Source of the DNA: Cellulomonas massiliensis JC225
GTDB taxonomy: Bacteria > Actinomycetota > Actinomycetes > Actinomycetales > Cellulomonadaceae
Direction of reading: 5' to 3'
Length of the DNA: 33,192 nucleotides
Assembly (NCBI RefSeq): GCF_000312005.1
Contig: NZ_HE978588.1
Coordinates: 413,113-446,304, forward strand
This document shows, one piece after another, positions 60 through 11,669 of this stretch (within the stretch, counting starts at the first letter, position 1; each line of letters begins with the position of its first letter). The notes below the pieces were generated by a model. The model was not told where the DNA came from. It made no database searches and was given only the letters and a program-made list of their open reading frames with translations. The position numbers and the translations under genes are program-made.

Positions 60-638
60 TCAGGCCGGCGGTCCGGCGAGCCGCGCGAGCAGGCCCGCCC
101 GGACCGCCGGCCACTCGTCCGCGAGGACCGAGAAGTACGCCGTGTCCGCCACCGTCCCGTCGGGCGAGCGCCGGTGGCGGCGCAGCACGCCCTCCGGCTG
201 CGCGCCGAGCCGCCGGATCGCCGCGATCGAGCGCGTGTTGCGCGAGTCGGCCCGCAGCGCCACGCGCTCGCAGCCCCACTCCTCGAACGCGTGCGTGAGC
301 AGCACGAGCTTGCAGGCGGGGTTGGTGGTCCCGCCCCACCACGGCCGTGCGTAGTAGGTGTGCCCGACCTCGACGCGCGGCACCCGGGGCACCCAGTCGT
401 AGAACGACGTGCTGCCCCGCACCTCGTCGTCGTCGCCGAGGACCGCGAACGCGAGCCGGTCCGGCGCGCGCAGGGCACCCGCGATCTCCTCCCCCATGCG
501 CTCGGCGGAGTCGGGCAGCGGCGAGCCCATGCCGCGCCACAGGTCGAGGTCGACGATCGCCGCGAGCGCCGTCGCGTGCTCCGGCGCGAGCGGCACGAGG
601 CGGACGCCGGGACCGGTGAGGACGAGGTCGTGCTCCAT
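60..638 (-). CDS. GNAT family N-acetyltransferase, RimJ/RimL type
   Basis: A 192-residue protein spanning one GNAT fold. The N-terminus (VRLVPLAPEHATAL) is the usual RimJ/RimL opening strand. A hydrophobic strand with WWGGTTNPACK at about 115-125 lies in the acetyl-CoA pyrophosphate-binding region, and RNTRSIAAIRRLGA near 148 is the family's typical C-terminal helix, followed by a GVLRRH strand. The likely role is cytoplasmic acetyl transfer from acetyl-CoA to an amine such as a protein N-terminus, small molecule or antibiotic; the substrate cannot be read from sequence. The start at 638 was chosen because GAGAGGGTG precedes that ATG by about six bases and the GNAT fold begins there; upstream in-frame sequence is arginine-rich and unlike the family. 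It follows the das operon terminator and probably has its own promoter. Confidence 0.85.
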   Translation of the reverse strand: MEHDLVLTGPGVRLVPLAPEHATALAAIVDLDLWRGMGSPLPDSAERMGEEIAGALRAPDRLAFAVLGDDDEVRGSTSFYDWVPRVPRVEVGHTYYARPWWGGTTNPACKLVLLTHAFEEWGCERVALRADSRNTRSIAAIRRLGAQPEGVLRRHRRSPDGTVADTAYFSVLADEWPAVRAGLLARLAGPPA

Positions 639-698
639 GCGGACACCCTCTCGCGCCACGTCGGCGCGGGGCCTGACCGTCTCGGGGGGACGCGGCCA

Positions 699-735
699 GG
701 CGGGGCGGGTCGTCGCGGCGACGGCCCGCCCCGCC
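699..735 (-). terminator. Hairpin terminator after the das operon
   Basis: GGCGGGGCGGG (699-709) and CCCGCCCCGCC (725-735) are perfect 11-bp inverted arms around a 15-base loop that can pair further internally (CGTCG/CGACG). It lies 12 bases after the stop codon of the CBM3-GH16 gene. No T-tract follows, which is usual in high-GC actinobacteria, so this is an L-shaped terminator inferred from structure and position. Confidence 0.6.
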
Positions 736-747
736 CTCACCGCCGGC

Positions 748-2190
748 TCACGGCGCCGGGACCGTGTCGACCCAGCTCGTGCCCGCGGCGCGGTAGCCGT
801 TGACCCGCGCGACGACGTCGGACGGCGCCACCACCTCACCCTTCGCGTGGTAGAACCAGTCGACCTGCTGCACGTAGGTGCGCGGCGTGCTGCTGCCGAT
901 CTGGCCGCCGCTGATGAACCAGAGGTTGAAGTTCACCGACTGCACCGTCTCCGGGTAGTAGTCGCCCCCGTGCGTCGCGAACAGCTGCCCGTCGACGTAG
1001 TAGCGGATCTGCCCGTCCGCGACCTGCAGCACGAGGTCGTGCCAGCCGGCGTAGCTCTGCCGGACCTCGGTGTGCGTGTTGACGGCCAGCCACGGCTCGT
1101 TGCGGTACGTCTCCCACGACGTCGTGTAGAGGATGTTCGACGGCTCGCCCCAACCGCCGTTGGGCAGGTACTCGAAGTCCTGCTCGGAGTACTGCGGGTC
1201 GAGGTCGTAGGCGAGGGGCGTGATGGTGAAGAAGGTCTCGACGACGGCGTCGCCGTCCGGACCGCTGACCGGGGCGTCCGTGAACAGCACCCGCGCGGCG
1301 TACGTCCCGTCGAGGAACTTGCGCTGGTGCAGGACCTCCGACTGCTGGGTCCCCGCCCCCGTGCCGTCCGTCGTCGAGCGCAGCTGCAGCGCCGTGTTGC
1401 TCCCCGAGACGGTGGGGAAGGAGACGTTCTGCTTCGGCCACGACGCCCCGGGGATCCCCGGGCCGCCCGCGTTCGTGCGGATCGTCCAGTGGTGGGCGCC
1501 GATGGCCGGGTCGTCGGCGTTCGCGTAGCTGAAGTCGTCGAAGACGACCGGGCCGCGGCCGGGGGGCTGGGTCGGCTGCGGTGTCGTCGGCGTCGGGTTC
1601 GGCGTCGTGGGCGTCGGGCTGCTGCCCGTGGGCGGCGTGCCCCAGACGAGGGCACCGTCCACGTACACGGCCGCCCTGGTCCAGTCCTGGTAGGCCGTCG
1701 TGGCCCCGTAGGAGTAGTCGTCCGCCTGCCCGATGCGCTGCCAGTCGGACCGGTGGAAGCGCAGCTGGAGGTCGCCCGTGCTCGCACCCGGCGCCAGCGT
1801 GCCCGCGGTGAAGCCGACGTCGAGGTACCGGTCGGCGCCGGCGGGCGCCCCGGCGACCGTCCCGAACGTGCCCGTCACCGTGGAGCAGGAGACGACGGCC
1901 CACGAGCACGCGAACCGGTACTGCTGGCCCGGGGAGTCCGAGCCGAACCAGTAGCGGATCGTCACCCGGCTCAGCGGCACCGCGCTCGCGCCGTCGTTGC
2001 GGAGCTGGAACCACGGCTCGACCTGGTCGACCGTGGCCCCCGGCGCACTCGTGCGGTACTGCAGGCGGAGCGTGCCCGCCGCCTGTGCGGACCCGGCGGC
2101 CACGCCGACCGCCACGAGCGCGGCGGCCGCCGTCGCGGCGGCCCACACCACCCGTCTCCTGCTCCTCGTCATGCTCGTCCTGGTTGCCAT
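748..2190 (-). CDS. Secreted GH16-family glycoside hydrolase with N-terminal CBM3
   Basis: 480 residues. A Sec signal peptide is visible: the basic n-region RSRRR, an Ala/Val-rich core and a likely AQA cleavage near residue 37. Residues about 39-186 form a family 3 carbohydrate-binding module, with the FQLRNDG strand, YWF, and a closing VYVDGALVWGT. A Thr/Pro linker covers about 188-213. Residues about 214-455 are a concanavalin-like domain with EQDFE at 336-340, matching the GH16 catalytic ExDxE pattern (nucleophile, assisting Asp, acid/base). CBM3 modules bind crystalline cellulose and sometimes chitin; GH16 enzymes cleave or transfer beta-glucans and galactans, so the true substrate is open. 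The start at 2190 has a strong AAGGA site five bases upstream; an ATG at 2172 overlaps the GH20 stop as ATGA and is a real alternative. The gene overlaps dasD by 22 bases and ends the das-like operon. Confidence 0.8.
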   Translation of the reverse strand: MATRTSMTRSRRRVVWAAATAAAALVAVGVAAGSAQAAGTLRLQYRTSAPGATVDQVEPWFQLRNDGASAVPLSRVTIRYWFGSDSPGQQYRFACSWAVVSCSTVTGTFGTVAGAPAGADRYLDVGFTAGTLAPGASTGDLQLRFHRSDWQRIGQADDYSYGATTAYQDWTRAAVYVDGALVWGTPPTGSSPTPTTPNPTPTTPQPTQPPGRGPVVFDDFSYANADDPAIGAHHWTIRTNAGGPGIPGASWPKQNVSFPTVSGSNTALQLRSTTDGTGAGTQQSEVLHQRKFLDGTYAARVLFTDAPVSGPDGDAVVETFFTITPLAYDLDPQYSEQDFEYLPNGGWGEPSNILYTTSWETYRNEPWLAVNTHTEVRQSYAGWHDLVLQVADGQIRYYVDGQLFATHGGDYYPETVQSVNFNLWFISGGQIGSSTPRTYVQQVDWFYHAKGEVVAPSDVVARVNGYRAAGTSWVDTVPAP

Positions 2191-3449
2191 GGCGGTTCCT
2201 TCCACTCGGTGTTCAGGCCCAGCCGGGCCAGGTGTGCGCGAAGCCGTGCGAGGAAGTCGGGGTAGTCACCGGCGGTGCCCCAGGCGACCTCGGCGAACGC
2301 GCACAGCCGCGGGAAGGCTCGGCGCTCCACGTCAGCGGGAGTCGGGAGGTACTCGGTCCAGAGCTGCGCCTGCACGCCGAGCACCCGTCCGGGCGCTCCG
2401 TGCGGCGTCGGGGGGTCGAACGTGTAGACGTTCTCGAGCGGCAGCACGCGGTCGGGGGCGAACGGGCCGGGCTCGAGGCGGGTCGGGTAGTCGAGGTACG
2501 TGCGCAGGTGCGGCGTGAGGACGACGTCGTGACCCGCGAACGCGGCGGCGGCTCCGCTGTCCTCGTCGAGCCACGTCATCGCCACCGCGCCGGGCGGCCC
2601 GTCGGCCTTCTCGTACCAGTACACCGGGGTCCGGCCGAGCGAGCGCACGTGCGCGGCCATCCGCGCGGAGAACCAGGCGCGCGCCTCGTGCGGGCCGGCG
2701 AGCCCGAGCTCGGCGATGCGCTCCCGCGCCCGTGGGGTCGTCGCCCACTCGTCCGGCAGGCACTCGTCCCCGCCGAGGTGCACGTGCTCGGCCGGGAACA
2801 CCTCGACGAGCTCGTCGAGCACGTGCCGGAAGAAGTCGAGCGTGGACTCCTCCAGGTTGAGCGTGTGCGGGCTGATCCCCCACGAGCGCCACACCTCGAG
2901 CGGCCGGTCCGGGTCGTTGCCCAGCTCCGGGTACGCCGCGAGCGCGGCCTGGACGTGCCCGGGGAGGCCGATCTCCGGCACGACGGTCACGCCCTGCCCC
3001 GCCGCGTGCTCGACGACCCGGCGCAGGTCGTCGAGCGCGTAGTGCTCCCCGGACGCCAGGCGCGGGTAGCGCTCGACGGGCAGCCGCCAGCCCTGGTCGT
3101 CGGTGAGGTGCAGCTGGAGGACGTTGAGCTTGTGGGCCGCGAGGAGGTCGACGAGCCGCAGGAGGAACTCCACCGGCATGAAGTGCCGCGCGACGTCGAG
3201 CATGACGCCCCGCCAGGGGAACCGGGGCGCGTCCACGATCGTCCCGAGCGGCACGTCGGCGCCGAGCGCGTCGAGCGTCGTGCGGCCGTACCGCTCTCCC
3301 GCGGGGCCGCCCGCGGTGAGGACGACCTCGGCCGTGGACACGTCCAGGCGGTACGCCTCCGGGCCGAAGGTGGCGTCGTGGTGCACGCGCAGCACCTGGG
3401 GTGCGGCGGTGGGTCCGCCGCGGGGCATGATCCGGGGTCGCGGGATCAC
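2169..3449 (-). CDS. dasD: Beta-N-acetylhexosaminidase, GH20 (DasD-like)
   Basis: 426 residues of glycoside hydrolase family 20, which removes terminal GlcNAc by substrate-assisted catalysis. The fold begins with the family's IPRPR opening. R80-G81 matches the substrate-binding Arg, HLTDDQGWRLP follows at about 114-124, and the catalytic pair is D228-E229 in HLGGDE (224-229). No signal peptide is seen, so the enzyme should be cytoplasmic and act on imported chito-oligomers. The N-terminal non-catalytic domain is short compared with most family members. The GTG at 3449 was chosen because GAAGGG lies nine bases upstream; the ATG at 3428 has no ribosome site and would remove the IPRPR strand. 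It begins four bases after the dasC stop, which indicates one operon with the importer. The arrangement matches dasABC-dasD in Streptomyces. Confidence 0.92.
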   Translation of the reverse strand: MIPRPRIMPRGGPTAAPQVLRVHHDATFGPEAYRLDVSTAEVVLTAGGPAGERYGRTTLDALGADVPLGTIVDAPRFPWRGVMLDVARHFMPVEFLLRLVDLLAAHKLNVLQLHLTDDQGWRLPVERYPRLASGEHYALDDLRRVVEHAAGQGVTVVPEIGLPGHVQAALAAYPELGNDPDRPLEVWRSWGISPHTLNLEESTLDFFRHVLDELVEVFPAEHVHLGGDECLPDEWATTPRARERIAELGLAGPHEARAWFSARMAAHVRSLGRTPVYWYEKADGPPGAVAMTWLDEDSGAAAAFAGHDVVLTPHLRTYLDYPTRLEPGPFAPDRVLPLENVYTFDPPTPHGAPGRVLGVQAQLWTEYLPTPADVERRAFPRLCAFAEVAWGTAGDYPDFLARLRAHLARLGLNTEWKEPPWQPGRA

Positions 3450-8214: not shown

Positions 8215-8223
8215 CGTCAGTCG
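8208..8223. terminator. Palindrome spanning two convergent stop codons
   Basis: CGACTGACGTCAGTCG is a perfect 16-bp palindrome containing the TGA of the pentapeptide gene (8212-8214) and the TGA of the opposing aminotransferase gene (8217-8219 on the minus strand). In RNA it could fold as a 6-bp stem with a 4-base loop in either direction. A weak bidirectional terminator is the simplest reading. Confidence 0.4.
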
Positions 8224-9638
8224 TCGAGCGCGGGCCCGCACGCCGCGGCCGCCGTGGCGGCGAGGTGGTCCAGGCCCTCCACGGCGATGAGCGGCCGGGT
8301 GTCGTCGACGACGGCCCAGCAGCCGTCGACCACCTCGTACCGCGCGCGCGGCCCCTCGCCCAGGTACGCGGCCACCCCGGACACCAGGCGGTCGACCCAC
8401 TCGCTCGTCGAGCCGACCCCGACGGACGCGCGGACGGCGCCGCCGGACGCCCCGAGGTGCGCGAGCAGGGGGTGCGCGCAGAACCGCCCGTCGCGCACGC
8501 CGATGCCGTGCTCGGCCGCGAGGTAGGCGGCGACGAGGCCGGCGTCGTGGCCGGGCACGGTGAACGTGACGACCCCGACGGGGTCGGCCGAGTCCGGCCA
8601 GATCCGGGCCACCTCGACGCCGTCGACCGCCCGCAGCCCGTCGACGAGCCGGTCCCGCAGCGCGACCTCGTGCGCCTCCAGGGCGCCGTCGGGCAGGGAC
8701 GCGAGCGTCTCACAGGCCTGCGCGAGGGCGATCGCGCCGACGACGTTCGGCGAGCCGGCCTCGTGCCGCGCGGGGGCCGGCTGCCAGACGGTACGGTCCG
8801 CGCGCACGTCGCGCACCGCGCCGCCGCCGGCCAGGTACGGGGTGCCGGTGTCGAGCCAGTCCCGGCGCCCGACGAGGGCGCCCGCACCGAACGGCGCGTA
8901 GGTCTTGTGGCCGGAGAAGGCGACGTAGTCGACGCCGGACTCCTGCAGCGAGAAGCGCCGGTGCGGGACGAGCTGCGCCCCGTCGACCGCCACCCGGGCA
9001 CCGGCGGCGTGGGCGATCGCCACCACCCGGTCCAGCGGCAGCGACTCCCCGGTCACGTTCGACGCCCCCGTCACCGTGACGAGCGCGAACGGCTGCTGCG
9101 CGAGCTCGATGGCGAGCGACGCGAGCGTGCCCTCCACCGTGGCGTCGATCGGCAGGATGGTCGTGCGGTGCTCGCCCCGCGCGGCGTGCACCCACGGCAG
9201 CAGGTTGGCGTGGTGCTCGAGGTCGAGCACCAGCACACGGCCGGGCACCACGGACGCGAGCAGGTTGAGCGAGTCGGTCGTGTTGCGGGTCACGACCGCC
9301 ACGTCGTCCTCGCGCGCCCCGACGAAGCGGGCGATCGTCTGCCGGGCCGCCTCGTACAGGGCGGTCGACACCTGCGAGAGGTAACCCGCCCCGCGGTGCA
9401 CGGAGGCGTACAGCGGCAGGACCTCGGCCACGCGGTCGGCGACGGCCTGCAGCGCCGGCGCGCTCGCCGCGTAGTCGAGGTTCGCGTAGACGCGCTGGGT
9501 GCCGTCGACGAGCGGCACGGTCGTGGACGCCCCCACGACGGGGAGCAGCGCCGCCACCGCGTCCGCGGCGGGGGTCAGGGGGTGGCCCGGCCCGGCGGCG
9601 CCGGTGGCACAGGACGGGGCGATCTCGGTGACGGTCAT
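8217..9638 (-). CDS. Class V aminotransferase, SufS/CsdA-like cysteine desulfurase
   Basis: 473 residues with fold type I PLP-enzyme features. NLDYAASAP at 53-61 is the start of the fold, HRGAGYLSQ at 81-89 follows, and EHHANLLPW lies at 141-149. D219 and Q222 (AVDGAQ) would contact PLP, and K245 in FSGHKTYAPFG is the PLP lysine. C387 in VRDGRFCAHPLL occupies the position of the persulfide cysteine of SufS, so it may release sulfur from cysteine as an enzyme-bound persulfide. About 40 residues beyond the usual fold end (YEVVDGCWAVVDDTRPLIAV onward) are unexplained. No suf genes are adjacent. A SAM-IV riboswitch in the leader and a divergent methionine operon suggest a role in sulfur mobilisation. 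The ATG at 9638 has GGAGGG seven bases upstream. Confidence 0.85.
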   Translation of the reverse strand: MTVTEIAPSCATGAAGPGHPLTPAADAVAALLPVVGASTTVPLVDGTQRVYANLDYAASAPALQAVADRVAEVLPLYASVHRGAGYLSQVSTALYEAARQTIARFVGAREDDVAVVTRNTTDSLNLLASVVPGRVLVLDLEHHANLLPWVHAARGEHRTTILPIDATVEGTLASLAIELAQQPFALVTVTGASNVTGESLPLDRVVAIAHAAGARVAVDGAQLVPHRRFSLQESGVDYVAFSGHKTYAPFGAGALVGRRDWLDTGTPYLAGGGAVRDVRADRTVWQPAPARHEAGSPNVVGAIALAQACETLASLPDGALEAHEVALRDRLVDGLRAVDGVEVARIWPDSADPVGVVTFTVPGHDAGLVAAYLAAEHGIGVRDGRFCAHPLLAHLGASGGAVRASVGVGSTSEWVDRLVSGVAAYLGEGPRARYEVVDGCWAVVDDTRPLIAVEGLDHLAATAAAACGPALDD

Positions 9639-9645
9639 GGCACAG

Positions 9646-9672
9646 CCCTCCGACTGGGGGACTGCCGTCCCC
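9646..9672 (-). promoter_or_regulatory. Expression platform of the SAM-IV leader
   Basis: On the minus strand a hairpin GGGGAC-GGCA-GTCCCC (9672-9657) overlaps the last bases of the SAM-IV aptamer and ends five bases before the ribosome site GGAGGG (9651-9646). The aptamer also contains CCCTCC, the exact complement of that site. Both features suggest control of translation initiation rather than transcription. The switching mechanism is an inference. Confidence 0.45.
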
Positions 9673-9784
9673 GCGCTTGCCGACGCCGGACGGCGTACGG
9701 CCAGGTCGTCACCCGGGGCACCCCGCCGCGGTGGGAGGGTTGCCGGCCAGCGAGCCGGGGCTTCGCGCTGGCGCTCATGACCTG
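9669..9784 (-). ncRNA. SAM-IV riboswitch
   Basis: The minus-strand sequence follows the SAM-IV class (mostly found in Actinobacteria) closely. P1 is CAGGTC (9784-9779) with GACCTG (9707-9702). P2 is GCCAGCG with CGCTGGC. The conserved CCGGCAACCCTCC junction and a GGGGTGCCCCGGGTGA segment follow. After P1 comes a hairpin ACGCC/GGCGT and the conserved GGCAAGCGCGGG tail, whose CGCGG can pair with CCGCG as the pseudoknot. It lies 31 bases before the ATG of the SufS-like gene and should lower its expression when S-adenosylmethionine is abundant. Confidence 0.9.
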
Positions 9785-9789
9785 CGTCG

Positions 9790-9819
9790 AGGGTGCCGAC
9801 GACGTGCCGACGGTGTCAA
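9790..9819 (-). promoter_or_regulatory. Promoter of the SAM-IV/SufS-like transcript
   Basis: TTGACA (9819-9814 on the minus strand) is a perfect -35 box. Eighteen bases later CACCCT (9795-9790) gives a poor -10 that keeps only the second A and final T. Transcription would start at about 9783, which is the first base of the riboswitch P1 stem. Confidence 0.55.
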
Positions 9820-9865
9820 CGCGTCGTCGCGCACGTCTCGGATCGCGGGACGACCGGTCCACCCC

Positions 9866-9895
9866 TTGGAGCCGGTCGGGCGGCGTGCGTACGAT
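9866..9895 (+). promoter_or_regulatory. Promoter of the SAM-I/rhodanese-metZ transcript
   Basis: TTGGAG (9866-9871) and TACGAT (9890-9895) are separated by 18 bases. The start would be near 9902, exactly at the beginning of the SAM-I P1 stem. It is back to back with the minus-strand promoter about 47 bases away. Confidence 0.65.
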
Positions 9896-9902
9896 CGCCG
9901 CA

Positions 9903-9994
9903 CCATCCAGAGCGGCCGAGAGATCTGGCTCGACGACGCCGCAGCAACCCGCGGGGCCACGCCCCGGCCGAGGGTGCTACCGCCAGACCGATGG
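9903..9994 (+). ncRNA. SAM-I (S-box) riboswitch
   Basis: The S-box pattern is visible in order. P1 is CCATC (9903-9907) with GATGG (9990-9994). CAGAGCGGCCGAGAGATC includes P2 and the kink-turn, and CTCGACGACGCCGCAGCAACC closes P2. A short P3 with GGGGC/GCCCC follows, then GAGGGTGCTACCGCC forms P4. The 3' strand of P1 runs directly into the ribosome site GGAGGAG before the ATG at 10003. SAM binding, which stabilises P1, would therefore hide the ribosome site, and translational control is likely. It regulates the rhodanese-metZ pair. Confidence 0.9.
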
Positions 9995-10002
9995 AGGAGC
10001 GC

Positions 10003-10410
10003 ATGACGTACGCCGGCGACCTGACCCCCCAGCAGGCCTGGGACCTGCTCCGCGACGACGAGGGCGCCGTGCTCGTCGACGTCCGCACCGACGGCGAGTG
10101 GCGCACGGTCGGGGTGCCGGACGCCGCCCAGCTCGGCGGACGAGCCGCGTTCGTCGAGTGGACCACCGCCGCCGGCCCCAACCCGCGGTTCCTCGAGGAG
10201 CTCGCCGAGGCGGGCGTCGAGCGCGGGCGGCCGGTCGTCTTCCTGTGCCGCTCGGGCGTCCGCTCGGTGGCCGCCGCCCAGGCGGCGACCTCCGCCGGCT
10301 ACGGCCCCGCCTACAACGTGCTGCAGGGCTTCGAGGGGGACGCCGGGCCGGACGGGCAGCGGGGCCACAGCGGCTGGCGCGCCGACGGCCTGCCCTGGCG
10401 CTCGCTGTGA
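10003..10410 (+). CDS. Rhodanese-domain sulfurtransferase
   Basis: 135 residues, a single rhodanese domain. It opens with LTPQQAWDLL and VLVDVRTDGEWRTVGVPDA, the usual Cdc25/rhodanese strand with the Asp-Val-Arg motif. The catalytic cysteine is C82 in FLCRSGVRS, a six-residue active loop suited to sulfur transfer. The protein has no signal peptide and should act in the cytoplasm, carrying persulfide sulfur. It is the first gene behind the SAM-I riboswitch and overlaps metZ by GTGA, so it may supply or handle sulfide for O-acylhomoserine sulfhydrylation. Rhodanese-metZ pairs are common in actinobacteria. The ATG has GGAGG about six bases upstream. Confidence 0.88.
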   Translation: MTYAGDLTPQQAWDLLRDDEGAVLVDVRTDGEWRTVGVPDAAQLGGRAAFVEWTTAAGPNPRFLEELAEAGVERGRPVVFLCRSGVRSVAAAQAATSAGYGPAYNVLQGFEGDAGPDGQRGHSGWRADGLPWRSL

Positions 10411-11669
10411 GCGCGGGCCGCGCCCTGCCCGGGCCCGGCGACTGGGACGACCACGGCCTGGACCGCTCGACCCTGCGCCCCGACACGCTCGCCGTGCGCG
10501 GCGGCCTCGTGCGCTCGGGCTTCGAGGAGATGTCCGAGGCGCTGTTCCTCACGCAGGGCTACACCTACGCGTCCGCGGCCGAGGCGGAGGCCGCGTTCGC
10601 CGGCGAGCGGGACCGGTTCCTGTACTCCCGGTACTCCAACCCGACCGTCTCGACGTTCGAGGAGCGCCTGCGGCTGCTCGACGGCGCCGAGGCCTGCTAC
10701 GCGACGGCGACCGGCATGTCCGCCGTGTTCACCGCGCTCGCCGCGCTGGTGAAGGCGGGCTCGCGGGTCGTGGCGGCGCGCGCGCTGTTCGGCTCGACCG
10801 TCGTCATCTTCGACGAGATCCTCGCCGGCTGGGGCGTCACCACCGATTACGTCGACGGGCACGAGCTCGCGCAGTGGGAGGCGGCGCTCGCCACGCCCGC
10901 CGACGTCGTGTTCTTCGAGACGCCGTCGAACCCGATGCAGGACCTCGTGGACGTCGCCGCGGTCGCGCGCCTGGCGCACGCCGCGGGAGCGACCGTCGTC
11001 GTCGACAACGTGTTCGCGACCCCGGTGCTGTCCCGGCCGCTCGACCTCGGCGCGGACGTGGTCGTCTACTCGGCGACGAAGCACATCGACGGGCAGGGCC
11101 GCGTCCTGGGCGGCGCGATCCTCGGTTCCGAGGACTACGTCCGCGGGCCGGTGCAGACGCTGCTGCGCAACACCGGGCCGTCCCTGTCGCCGTTCAACGC
11201 CTGGGTGCTGCTCAAGGGCCTCGAGACCCTGTCGCTGCGCGTCCGGCACCAGACGGCCTCGGCCCTCGAGCTGGCCACGTGGCTCGAGCAGCAGCCGCAG
11301 GTCGCCCGGGTCCGCTACCCGTACCTCGCCTCCCACCCGCAGCACGCGCTGGCCCGGCGGCAGCAGTCGGGCGGCGGCACCGTCGTCACGTTCGACCTCG
11401 CCGTGCCGCAGGACGCGAGCCCGGAGGTCGCGAAGAAGGCGACGTTCGGCGTGCTCGACGCGCTGCGGCTCGTCGACATCTCGAACAACCTCGGCGACGC
11501 GAAGTCGATCGTCACGCACCCGGCGACGACCACGCACCGCAAGCTCGGCCCGGAGGGCCGCGCACGCGTGGGGATCGCCGAGGCGACCGTCCGGTTCTCG
11601 GTGGGGCTGGAGGACGTCGGCGACCTGCGGGACGACCTGACGCAGGCGCTGGGGACGCTCGGCGGCTGA
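10407..11669 (+). CDS. metZ: O-succinylhomoserine sulfhydrylase (MetZ)
   Basis: 420 residues of the Cys/Met metabolism PLP family. It should convert O-succinylhomoserine (or the acetyl ester) and sulfide to homocysteine by direct sulfhydrylation. LYSRYSNPTVSTFEERL at about 72-88 is the family's substrate and PLP-phosphate segment, ATGMSAVFTAL follows at about 101-111, and K225 in YSATKHIDGQGR is the PLP lysine. THPATTTHRKL near the end contains the conserved substrate-binding region. The family resembles cystathionine gamma-synthase, but the FEEMSEALFLTQGYTYASA opening favours MetZ. The GTG at 10407 overlaps the rhodanese stop, so the two are translationally coupled and share the SAM-I riboswitch. 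Confidence 0.9.
   Translation: MSAGRALPGPGDWDDHGLDRSTLRPDTLAVRGGLVRSGFEEMSEALFLTQGYTYASAAEAEAAFAGERDRFLYSRYSNPTVSTFEERLRLLDGAEACYATATGMSAVFTALAALVKAGSRVVAARALFGSTVVIFDEILAGWGVTTDYVDGHELAQWEAALATPADVVFFETPSNPMQDLVDVAAVARLAHAAGATVVVDNVFATPVLSRPLDLGADVVVYSATKHIDGQGRVLGGAILGSEDYVRGPVQTLLRNTGPSLSPFNAWVLLKGLETLSLRVRHQTASALELATWLEQQPQVARVRYPYLASHPQHALARRQQSGGGTVVTFDLAVPQDASPEVAKKATFGVLDALRLVDISNNLGDAKSIVTHPATTTHRKLGPEGRARVGIAEATVRFSVGLEDVGDLRDDLTQALGTLGG

Follow-up and report, generated by a model that had tools for sequence, protein, structure and literature searches.

A conserved head-to-head pair of SAM-IV and P4-less SAM-I leaders between a cysteine desulfurase gene and rhodanese-metZ in Cellulomonas and related genera

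It is an open question why a single genome should maintain more than one riboswitch class that recognises the same ligand. Among the classes that sense S-adenosylmethionine (SAM), SAM-I and SAM-IV are usually distinguished by P4, and the hallmarks of SAM-IV are a P5 hairpin and a pseudoknot, PK-2, that joins the P3 loop to the 3′ tail, in the absence of P4 (PMC6890682, accessible text). A hallmark of SAM-I is the P2 kink-turn with its tandem G-A pairs (PMC3764141, accessible text). The SAM-I/IV variant, as described in the accessible parts of PMC6890682 and PMC2864571, has a P2 that is not split by an internal loop, lacks PK-1 and possesses P4. Combinations have been described in the form of tandem SAM-II/SAM-V and SAM-II/SAM-I-IV leaders, which stand in series before one gene (PMC9481103, in the part available), and a survey of riboswitches lying contiguously before one gene or operon uses neither ‘divergent’ nor ‘opposite’ in its main text (PMC12452182). 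Both classes that concern us here are thus already known; a conserved divergent pair of SAM-I and SAM-IV, and a SAM-I without P4, are undescribed in the literature searched, the accessible part of which (its reach into subscription papers being limited) yielded a statement on neither.

The window, i.e. the whole stretch of DNA that was analysed, comprises 33,192 nucleotides of Cellulomonas massiliensis JC225. A cmscan search of all of it against all Rfam families returned exactly two matches above gathering score, one for RF00634 on the minus strand and one for RF00162 on the plus strand, which are the models that the first-pass annotation had named as a check of its two classes; the margin of RF00162 over its cut-off is 4.9 bits only. 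A permissive Rfam scan of the locus added just mir-592 and BTH_s1, both far below their cut-offs. The two aptamers are separated by 117 bases and are flanked as follows.

8217..9638, minus strand: SufS-like cysteine desulfurase of the class-V aminotransferase fold, 473 residues, from profile matches
9668..9782, minus strand: SAM-IV aptamer (RF00634), 103.2 bits for a cut-off of 38, E = 3.8e-18, full-length match with P1, P2, P3, P5, PK-1 and PK-2
9900..9997, plus strand: SAM-I (S-box) aptamer without P4 (RF00162), 49.3 bits for a cut-off of 44.4, E = 1.5e-8, full-length match with P1, P2 with its tandem GA turn, P3 and PK-1
10003..10410, plus strand: single-domain rhodanese (PF00581)
10407..11669, plus strand: metZ, O-succinylhomoserine sulfhydrylase (NF005870, 719.5 bits for a cut-off of 618; TIGR01325, 602.6 bits for a cut-off of 510)

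The assignment of classes to strands and of genes to classes that had been made by inspection, with SAM-IV before the SufS-like desulfurase and SAM-I before rhodanese-metZ, was therefore borne out. The desulfurase scores 279 bits with the SufS model, under the cut-off of 475, and the genome encodes another SufS which reaches 558.8 bits; the solved structures that best match the family profile of the former are cysteine desulfurases and SufS, and K245 and C387, which we take to be the PLP lysine and the catalytic cysteine, are invariant in 13 of 13 sequences. On the other side, the start of metZ and the stop of the rhodanese gene share 4 bases. The genome encodes four full-length Cys/Met PLP enzymes, MetZ among them, the other three matching cystathionine gamma-synthase, O-acetylhomoserine/O-acetylserine sulfhydrylase and cystathionine gamma-lyase (the last one below its cut-off). 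At E ≤ 0.001, the minus-strand element is the sole RF00634 match of the JC225 genome, and RF00162 matches the plus-strand element and one further copy. This second SAM-I (L042 1501-1594; C1:979035-979128) lies directly before a gene for methylenetetrahydrofolate reductase, metF (PF02219, 241.9 bits), and, judged by eye, likewise lacks P4.

The reading that we favour, with considerable confidence and on comparative grounds, is that of conserved head-to-head SAM-sensing leaders which would exert coordinated OFF control over two units that became joined. Each RNA would bind SAM and switch off its own mRNA, and when SAM is plentiful, sulfur would cease at the same time to be released from cysteine and to be transferred into homocysteine.

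Conservation within the genus is nearly complete. Judged from the places of the Rfam matches, the head-to-head pair is present in 33 of 36 Cellulomonas genomes (33 of the 34 that match both enzymes), and SAM-IV is always followed by the desulfurase gene, SAM-I by metZ. Of the genomes without it, G004 and G032 matched neither enzyme at E 1e-60 and 1e-130, and G012 is a fragmented assembly with the two units on different contigs. In 21 genomes, 116-120 bases separate the two elements; the remaining gaps measure 98 bases (one genome), 158-165 (six), 730-762 (four) and 1256 (one). A long spacer, that of G003 (L104 3882-4612), contains a frame resembling a GNAT acetyltransferase, by eye, which is read toward SAM-IV. 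The genus also holds cases of SAM-IV facing SAM-IV (L112 4626-5071 and L113 4979-5366), where the partner genes, again by eye, are those of an oxidoreductase, an FMN reductase, an aminotransferase and a nitroreductase.

By its sequence, the plus-strand element is a reduced, P4-less SAM-I, a member of the class by the Rfam cut-off and not by the textbook outline. In the cmscan alignment, 17 model positions of the P4 region are deleted. We aligned 37 SAM-I copies, that of the window together with those from 15 of the 32 remaining pairs in the genus, 12 of the 13 loci from other genera at which Rfam found both elements (L205 was omitted as like L206) and 9 of 16 loci from a set of named genomes: in all 37 the distance from PK-1 to P1 is at most 4 bases, which leaves no P4. 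The first-pass annotation had supposed a shared core with differing outer architecture; the two classes do differ in the P2 turn, P5 and PK-2, but the P4 contrast is absent, SAM-I having no P4 here. The parts of SAM-I to which we refer below are these.

9924..9928, plus strand: 5′ strand of SAM-I PK-1, UCUGG, with the 3′ strand CCAGA at 9983-9987, read from the sequence
9990..9997, plus strand: 3′ strand of SAM-I P1, GAUGG (9990-9994), overlapping the ribosome binding site (RBS) GGAGG (9993-9997), read from the sequence

One could regard the plus-strand element as a decayed or chance match, given a score of 49.3 bits against 44.4, the deleted P4 positions and the many relatives under the Rfam cut-off: SAM-I falls short of it in 7 of the 33 genus pairs (31.9 to 44.2 bits), 11 of the 16 named loci and 6 of 19 loci from other genera, and such elements rest on our own covariance model (R1) or on pattern and eye. 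With R1, whose 37 training rows include the window, the window element reaches 102.0 bits. We hold a chance or decayed match to be very improbable and rejected it on the pairing and covariation counts in 37 SAM-I and 36 SAM-IV leaders. For SAM-I, 95.4% of cells are paired, and two-sided changes occur at 6 pairs, compared to 3.1 in shuffles (0 of 500 as high), while further pair types are at the level of the shuffles (9 versus 8.7, 299 of 500 as high). No fewer than 46 columns are invariant across the 37 rows, the tip of P3 being variable; two P3 pairs of this outer loop fail in 12 and 22 rows, which probably reflects bad alignment there. The P2b pair reads A-U in 20 rows, and in the other 17 it is U-A. 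In PK-1, 95.8% of cells are paired (6 of 144 are unpaired), with two-sided changes at two pairs, one of which is C-G in 19 relatives, G-C in 8, G-U in 1, unpaired in 5 and a gap in 4, and the other U-A in 35, C-G in 1 and unpaired in 1. The tandem G-A of P2 is invariant as well (G19 A20 and, opposite, G36 A37, in 37 of 37 rows), and a kink-turn is predicted from the sequence. Lastly, the same form recurs before the metF gene of C. massiliensis, which also argues against chance. As P4-less copies score around the Rfam cut-off or beneath it, the number of SAM-I elements in these bacteria is probably underestimated.

The pairing of SAM-IV was counted in 36 distinct leaders (its alignment, like that of SAM-I, has 37 rows). 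Here 98.6% of cells are paired, and two-sided changes are seen at 11 pairs for 5.2 in shuffles (0 of 500 as high); the pairings that the first reading had expected to recur in related leaders are thus kept for both classes. The window element has the two hallmarks of its class, P5 and PK-2. In the two helices of P5, 97.2% and 91.6% of cells are paired, and 7 of the 9 pairs show two-sided changes; PK-2 is paired in 100% of cells, and in a single row one of its pairs has changed from G-C to A-U. The 5 pairs of PK-1 are present in 36 of 36 rows and are all invariant, so that they bring no support from covariation.

How each RNA would act on its mRNA may be proposed from the position of the RBS. 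On the rhodanese side, GATG followed by purine-rich bases is found in 33 of 33 genus SAM-I leaders (exactly GATGG in 32), and the RBS lies inside the 3′ strand of P1 or touches it in all 33. An RBS in this strand is a mode described for SAM-I (PMC2258182, accessible text), and riboswitch base stems are reported to overlap the start site frequently in Actinobacteria (PMC1262725, accessible text). The location of the RBS in or against P1, taken together with the published P1 mode, makes translational OFF control by SAM likely on the metZ side, by analogy, with P1 closing over the RBS. On the desulfurase side the switch would probably operate one step further downstream, with elements that we draw as follows.

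9646..9673, minus strand: proposed SAM-IV expression platform, with CGGGGAC (9673-9667) overlapping PK-2, its complement GUCCCC (9662-9657) and the RBS GGAGGG (9651-9646)

PK-2 would take up CGCGG, freeing the C-rich strand to cover the RBS. The best pairing between the bases after PK-2 and the C-rich stretch before the RBS has a mean score of 15.3 with a leader's own strand, 14.6 with the strand of other genomes and 11.9 after shuffling, and it is at least 15 in 25 of 33 genus leaders. Of 32 leaders that were folded whole (one leader, in which no RBS was found, was dropped), 7 showed an exposure of the RBS lowered by more than 0.1 when PK-2 was locked and none showed it raised, the others hardly shifting; in folds of the tail it went down by more than 0.1 in 7 of 33 and up in none, the shift being at most 0.1 in 26. 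In the window itself, exposure goes from 0.65 to 0.28 in the whole-leader fold and from 0.28 to 0.25 in the tail fold. The platform as drawn is therefore a proposal, to which modelling by folding lends weak support.

The region between the two aptamers contains the following candidate signals.

9814..9819, minus strand: TTGACA, −35 of the SAM-IV promoter, with a −10-like CACCCT at 9790-9795 (spacing 18) and a predicted start at A9783, one base before P1
9835..9851, no strand assigned: inverted repeat GTCTCG-N5-CGGGAC, centred at 60 bases from both aptamer 5′ ends, midway between the promoters
9890..9895, plus strand: TACGAT, −10-like element of the SAM-I promoter, with a −35-like TTGGAG at 9866-9871 (spacing 18) and a predicted start at A9902, one base before P1

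Two promoters with starts about 119 bases apart had been claimed for this region. The distance stands, A9783 and A9902 being 119 bases apart, and the hexamers are at fixed places, but the starts are predicted ones, and a sigma-70 consensus scan recovered neither promoter, finding no promoter and no terminator. The hexamers were read by eye and are supported by conservation. TAnnnT occurs 7-9 bases before the SAM-I core CCATCC in all 33 genus genomes and in 25 of the 28 further loci; TTGAC occurs 37-39 bases before the 5′ end of SAM-IV in 31 of 33 genus genomes and 36-38 bases before it in 28 of 28 further loci, the distance of 76 in the other two genus genomes seemingly being due to an enlarged P2 that shifted the start of the match.

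The pattern of the inverted repeat was found in 20 of 33 genus spacers, for a mean of 0.08 and a maximum of 2 in shuffles, which ignore the relatedness of the genomes. All 20 belong to the 28 spacers shorter than 170 bases, and the centre is 60-62 bases from both aptamers in 16 of them and from one only in 4. Among 20 short spacers from other genera and named loci, the full repeat is present in 2 (shuffles 0.08), and a GTCTC or GAGAC half-site in 19 (shuffles, mean 6.8, maximum 13). The exact pattern has 3 sites in the C. massiliensis genome; with up to one mismatch there are 98 forward and 63 reverse sites, for 16 and 21 with a reversed-pattern control, but because of the near-palindromic nature of the pattern and the different make-up of the control, no regulon was deduced from these numbers. 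The simplest reading, which the conservation of the sequence suggests, is that of a candidate site for a shared DNA-binding regulator.

This raises the possibility that the classes of the two RNAs are incidental, and that the pair is conserved because the genes share a single DNA-binding regulator and a single short promoter region; indeed the arrangement can also be kept for the shared promoter region alone. We give this explanation real weight, while judging it to be somewhat improbable. The frequent repeat and half-site and the fixed promoter hexamers speak for it. However, the pattern is missing from 8 of the 28 short genus spacers, the full repeat is confined to 2 of the 20 others, and five genus genomes as well as five of 19 other-genus loci keep both elements across 318-3369 bases.

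How far the arrangement extends was followed in two sets of genomes. The named genomes of the second overlap with the genomes counted elsewhere, those of the genus included (L118 is the same contig as the genus genome G002), so that the counts are not additive. The first consisted of 20 SAM-IV loci from 18 other genera of the host family (two each from g44 and g45), picked among the matches listed, 12 for a visible pair and 8 for none visible; 7 of these 8 did hold the pair. The desulfurase is present in 19 of the 20, all 19 having SAM-IV before it and a divergent SAM-I, as found with R1, which was trained partly on the same loci (Rfam alone saw 13 of the 19). At the twentieth locus, L213, SAM-IV precedes a different gene. 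A rhodanese gene follows SAM-I in 18 of the 19, and the nineteenth locus ends inside the SAM-I element. The gaps are of 86-143 bases in 14 and of 318 to 3369 in five. The second set comprised 80 named loci, with SAM-IV directly upstream of the desulfurase in 75 (Rfam alone detected it in 42 of the 47 named desulfurase loci given to it). The five without SAM-IV are from Leifsonia, Cryobacterium, Klugiella, Glaciihabitans and a bin named Microbacteriaceae; Klugiella and Glaciihabitans belong to the Microbacteriaceae according to a taxonomy look-up, and Leifsonia and Cryobacterium presumably do too. Rhodanese and metZ lie close to the desulfurase, on its opposite side, in 16 of the 80, from Cellulomonas, Cellulosimicrobium, Isoptericola, Myceligenerans, Xylanimonas and Sanguibacter, and all 16 have both SAM-IV and SAM-I (Rfam saw the latter in 5). 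In Xylanimicrobium, a distance of 3 kb lies between the two elements. NCBI spreads the pair-bearing genera that were looked up over three families, which we take to be joined in one by GTDB. This separate check of conservation makes the pair an arrangement of a whole group of genera, larger than one window.

Some other combinations were seen at the same desulfurase. Nocardia carnea (L168 3589-3957) has a divergent SAM-I/SAM-IV pair at the orthologous gene (60.7 and 103.8 bits), in which the next long frame is a 2OG-Fe(II) oxygenase-like gene and SAM-I is also P4-deleted; by its partner gene, as read from the sequence, it is an independent case. SAM-IV faces SAM-IV in Klenkia (L138 2875-3192) and Williamsia (L188 3465-3908), the partners being, by eye, a luciferase-like oxidoreductase and an ABC substrate-binding protein. 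SAM-IV with an actinobacterial-type desulfurase also occurs in L183, titled Sporosarcina beigongshangi, and in L150, a Thermoleophilia bin, records that could be due to contamination, misnaming or transfer.

As to the origin of the pair, each unit is found alone elsewhere. Among the named loci, 64 have no metZ in the vicinity of the desulfurase gene, and SAM-IV stands before that gene in 59 of them. Of 76 metZ leaders found outside the host family, 36 were analysed, the 16 best-scoring and 20 spread over families: 18 have SAM-I, 3 have SAM-IV and 15 have neither. The SAM-I leaders belong to three families in which rhodanese stands between (f12, f13 and f14) and to a fourth (f3) without rhodanese; in f6, SAM-IV stands on rhodanese-metZ in 3 of 3 loci, and so the class on metZ differs between families. 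Within the host family, the leader on the metZ side is SAM-I at all 14 metZ loci and SAM-IV at none, and in 12 of the 14 a SAM-IV faces away within the fetched stretch. That each unit occurs by itself points to the joining of two older units and argues against duplication, in line with the separate recruitment that the first-pass annotation had put forward. The pair probably arose, to judge from these distributions, when two older, separately regulated units became neighbours: the SAM-IV/desulfurase and SAM-I/rhodanese-metZ units would have existed separately in Actinomycetes and come to lie back to back around the base of this group of genera, each side inheriting its class with its gene instead of having it chosen for the pair. 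In a genome from another family of the order, G047 (L100 5070-9772), both units are divergent and 4.5 kb apart, which may be an older state or the result of an insertion and makes the time of joining uncertain.

That a single aptamer was duplicated locally and its copies then diverged into the two classes is an alternative which we find hardly credible. The SAM-clan core common to both elements and their back-to-back position are what it has in its favour; against it, and leading us to reject it, in other families each class occurs alone at the orthologous gene, neither model matches the site of the other in the C. massiliensis genome, and the intermediate class SAM-I-IV (RF01725) matches none of 150 family genomes, that of C. 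massiliensis included, in a search with stricter filters. Assignment of either element to that class was rejected on the same count and because the features of both disagree with it.

We may also ask, following the tuning to different SAM concentrations that the first-pass annotation had offered as an alternative, whether the two classes are kept for different set-points, i.e. a difference in affinity for SAM or in speed by which one side is turned off first. The class found on each side is constant in the 33 genus pairs, the 19 other-genus loci, the 14 family metZ loci and the 16 named loci (sets that overlap), and the proposed platforms differ, with direct cover by P1 for SAM-I and a downstream switch for SAM-IV. 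But each class also stands on the same gene elsewhere without a partner, in which case inheritance alone explains the constancy, and SAM-I is not required for metZ, as follows from the SAM-IV of f6 and from the 15 of 36 outside-family leaders with neither class. We thus think that different set-points are unlikely to be the reason. A more elaborate version, in which two aptamers of differing periphery and platforms, 119 bases apart across a group of genera, would read one SAM pool with different set-points and turn off the synthesis of homocysteine and the freeing of cysteine sulfur in a fixed order, with the input of a shared DNA-binding regulator in addition, appears to us quite doubtful.

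This locus is a good test case for whether class identity matters: two SAM-clan classes stand at one conserved locus, orthologous operons carry either class or none, and class swaps are therefore testable on one promoter region within a single host. If the P4-less SAM-I binds SAM, then P4 is dispensable. Compared with the known systems, the SAM-IV element resembles RF00634 in its core, P5, both pseudoknots and full-length match, with no difference seen in the aptamer, and what is new is its placement back to back with SAM-I. The SAM-I element shares with RF00162 the core, the P2 tandem-GA turn, PK-1, P3 and the RBS in the 3′ strand of P1, and differs from it by the lack of P4, in the window as in every one of the 37 aligned copies. 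The SAM-I/IV class (RF01725) is similar in that it mixes traits of both classes, whereas the SAM-I of the window has the P2 loop and PK-1 and no P4, going by the accessible descriptions of that class. Finally, the tandem SAM-II/SAM-V and SAM-II/SAM-I-IV leaders likewise bring two SAM-sensing classes to one locus, but, as far as the available text describes them, the Cellulomonas pair differs in being carried by two divergent transcripts that serve different genes.
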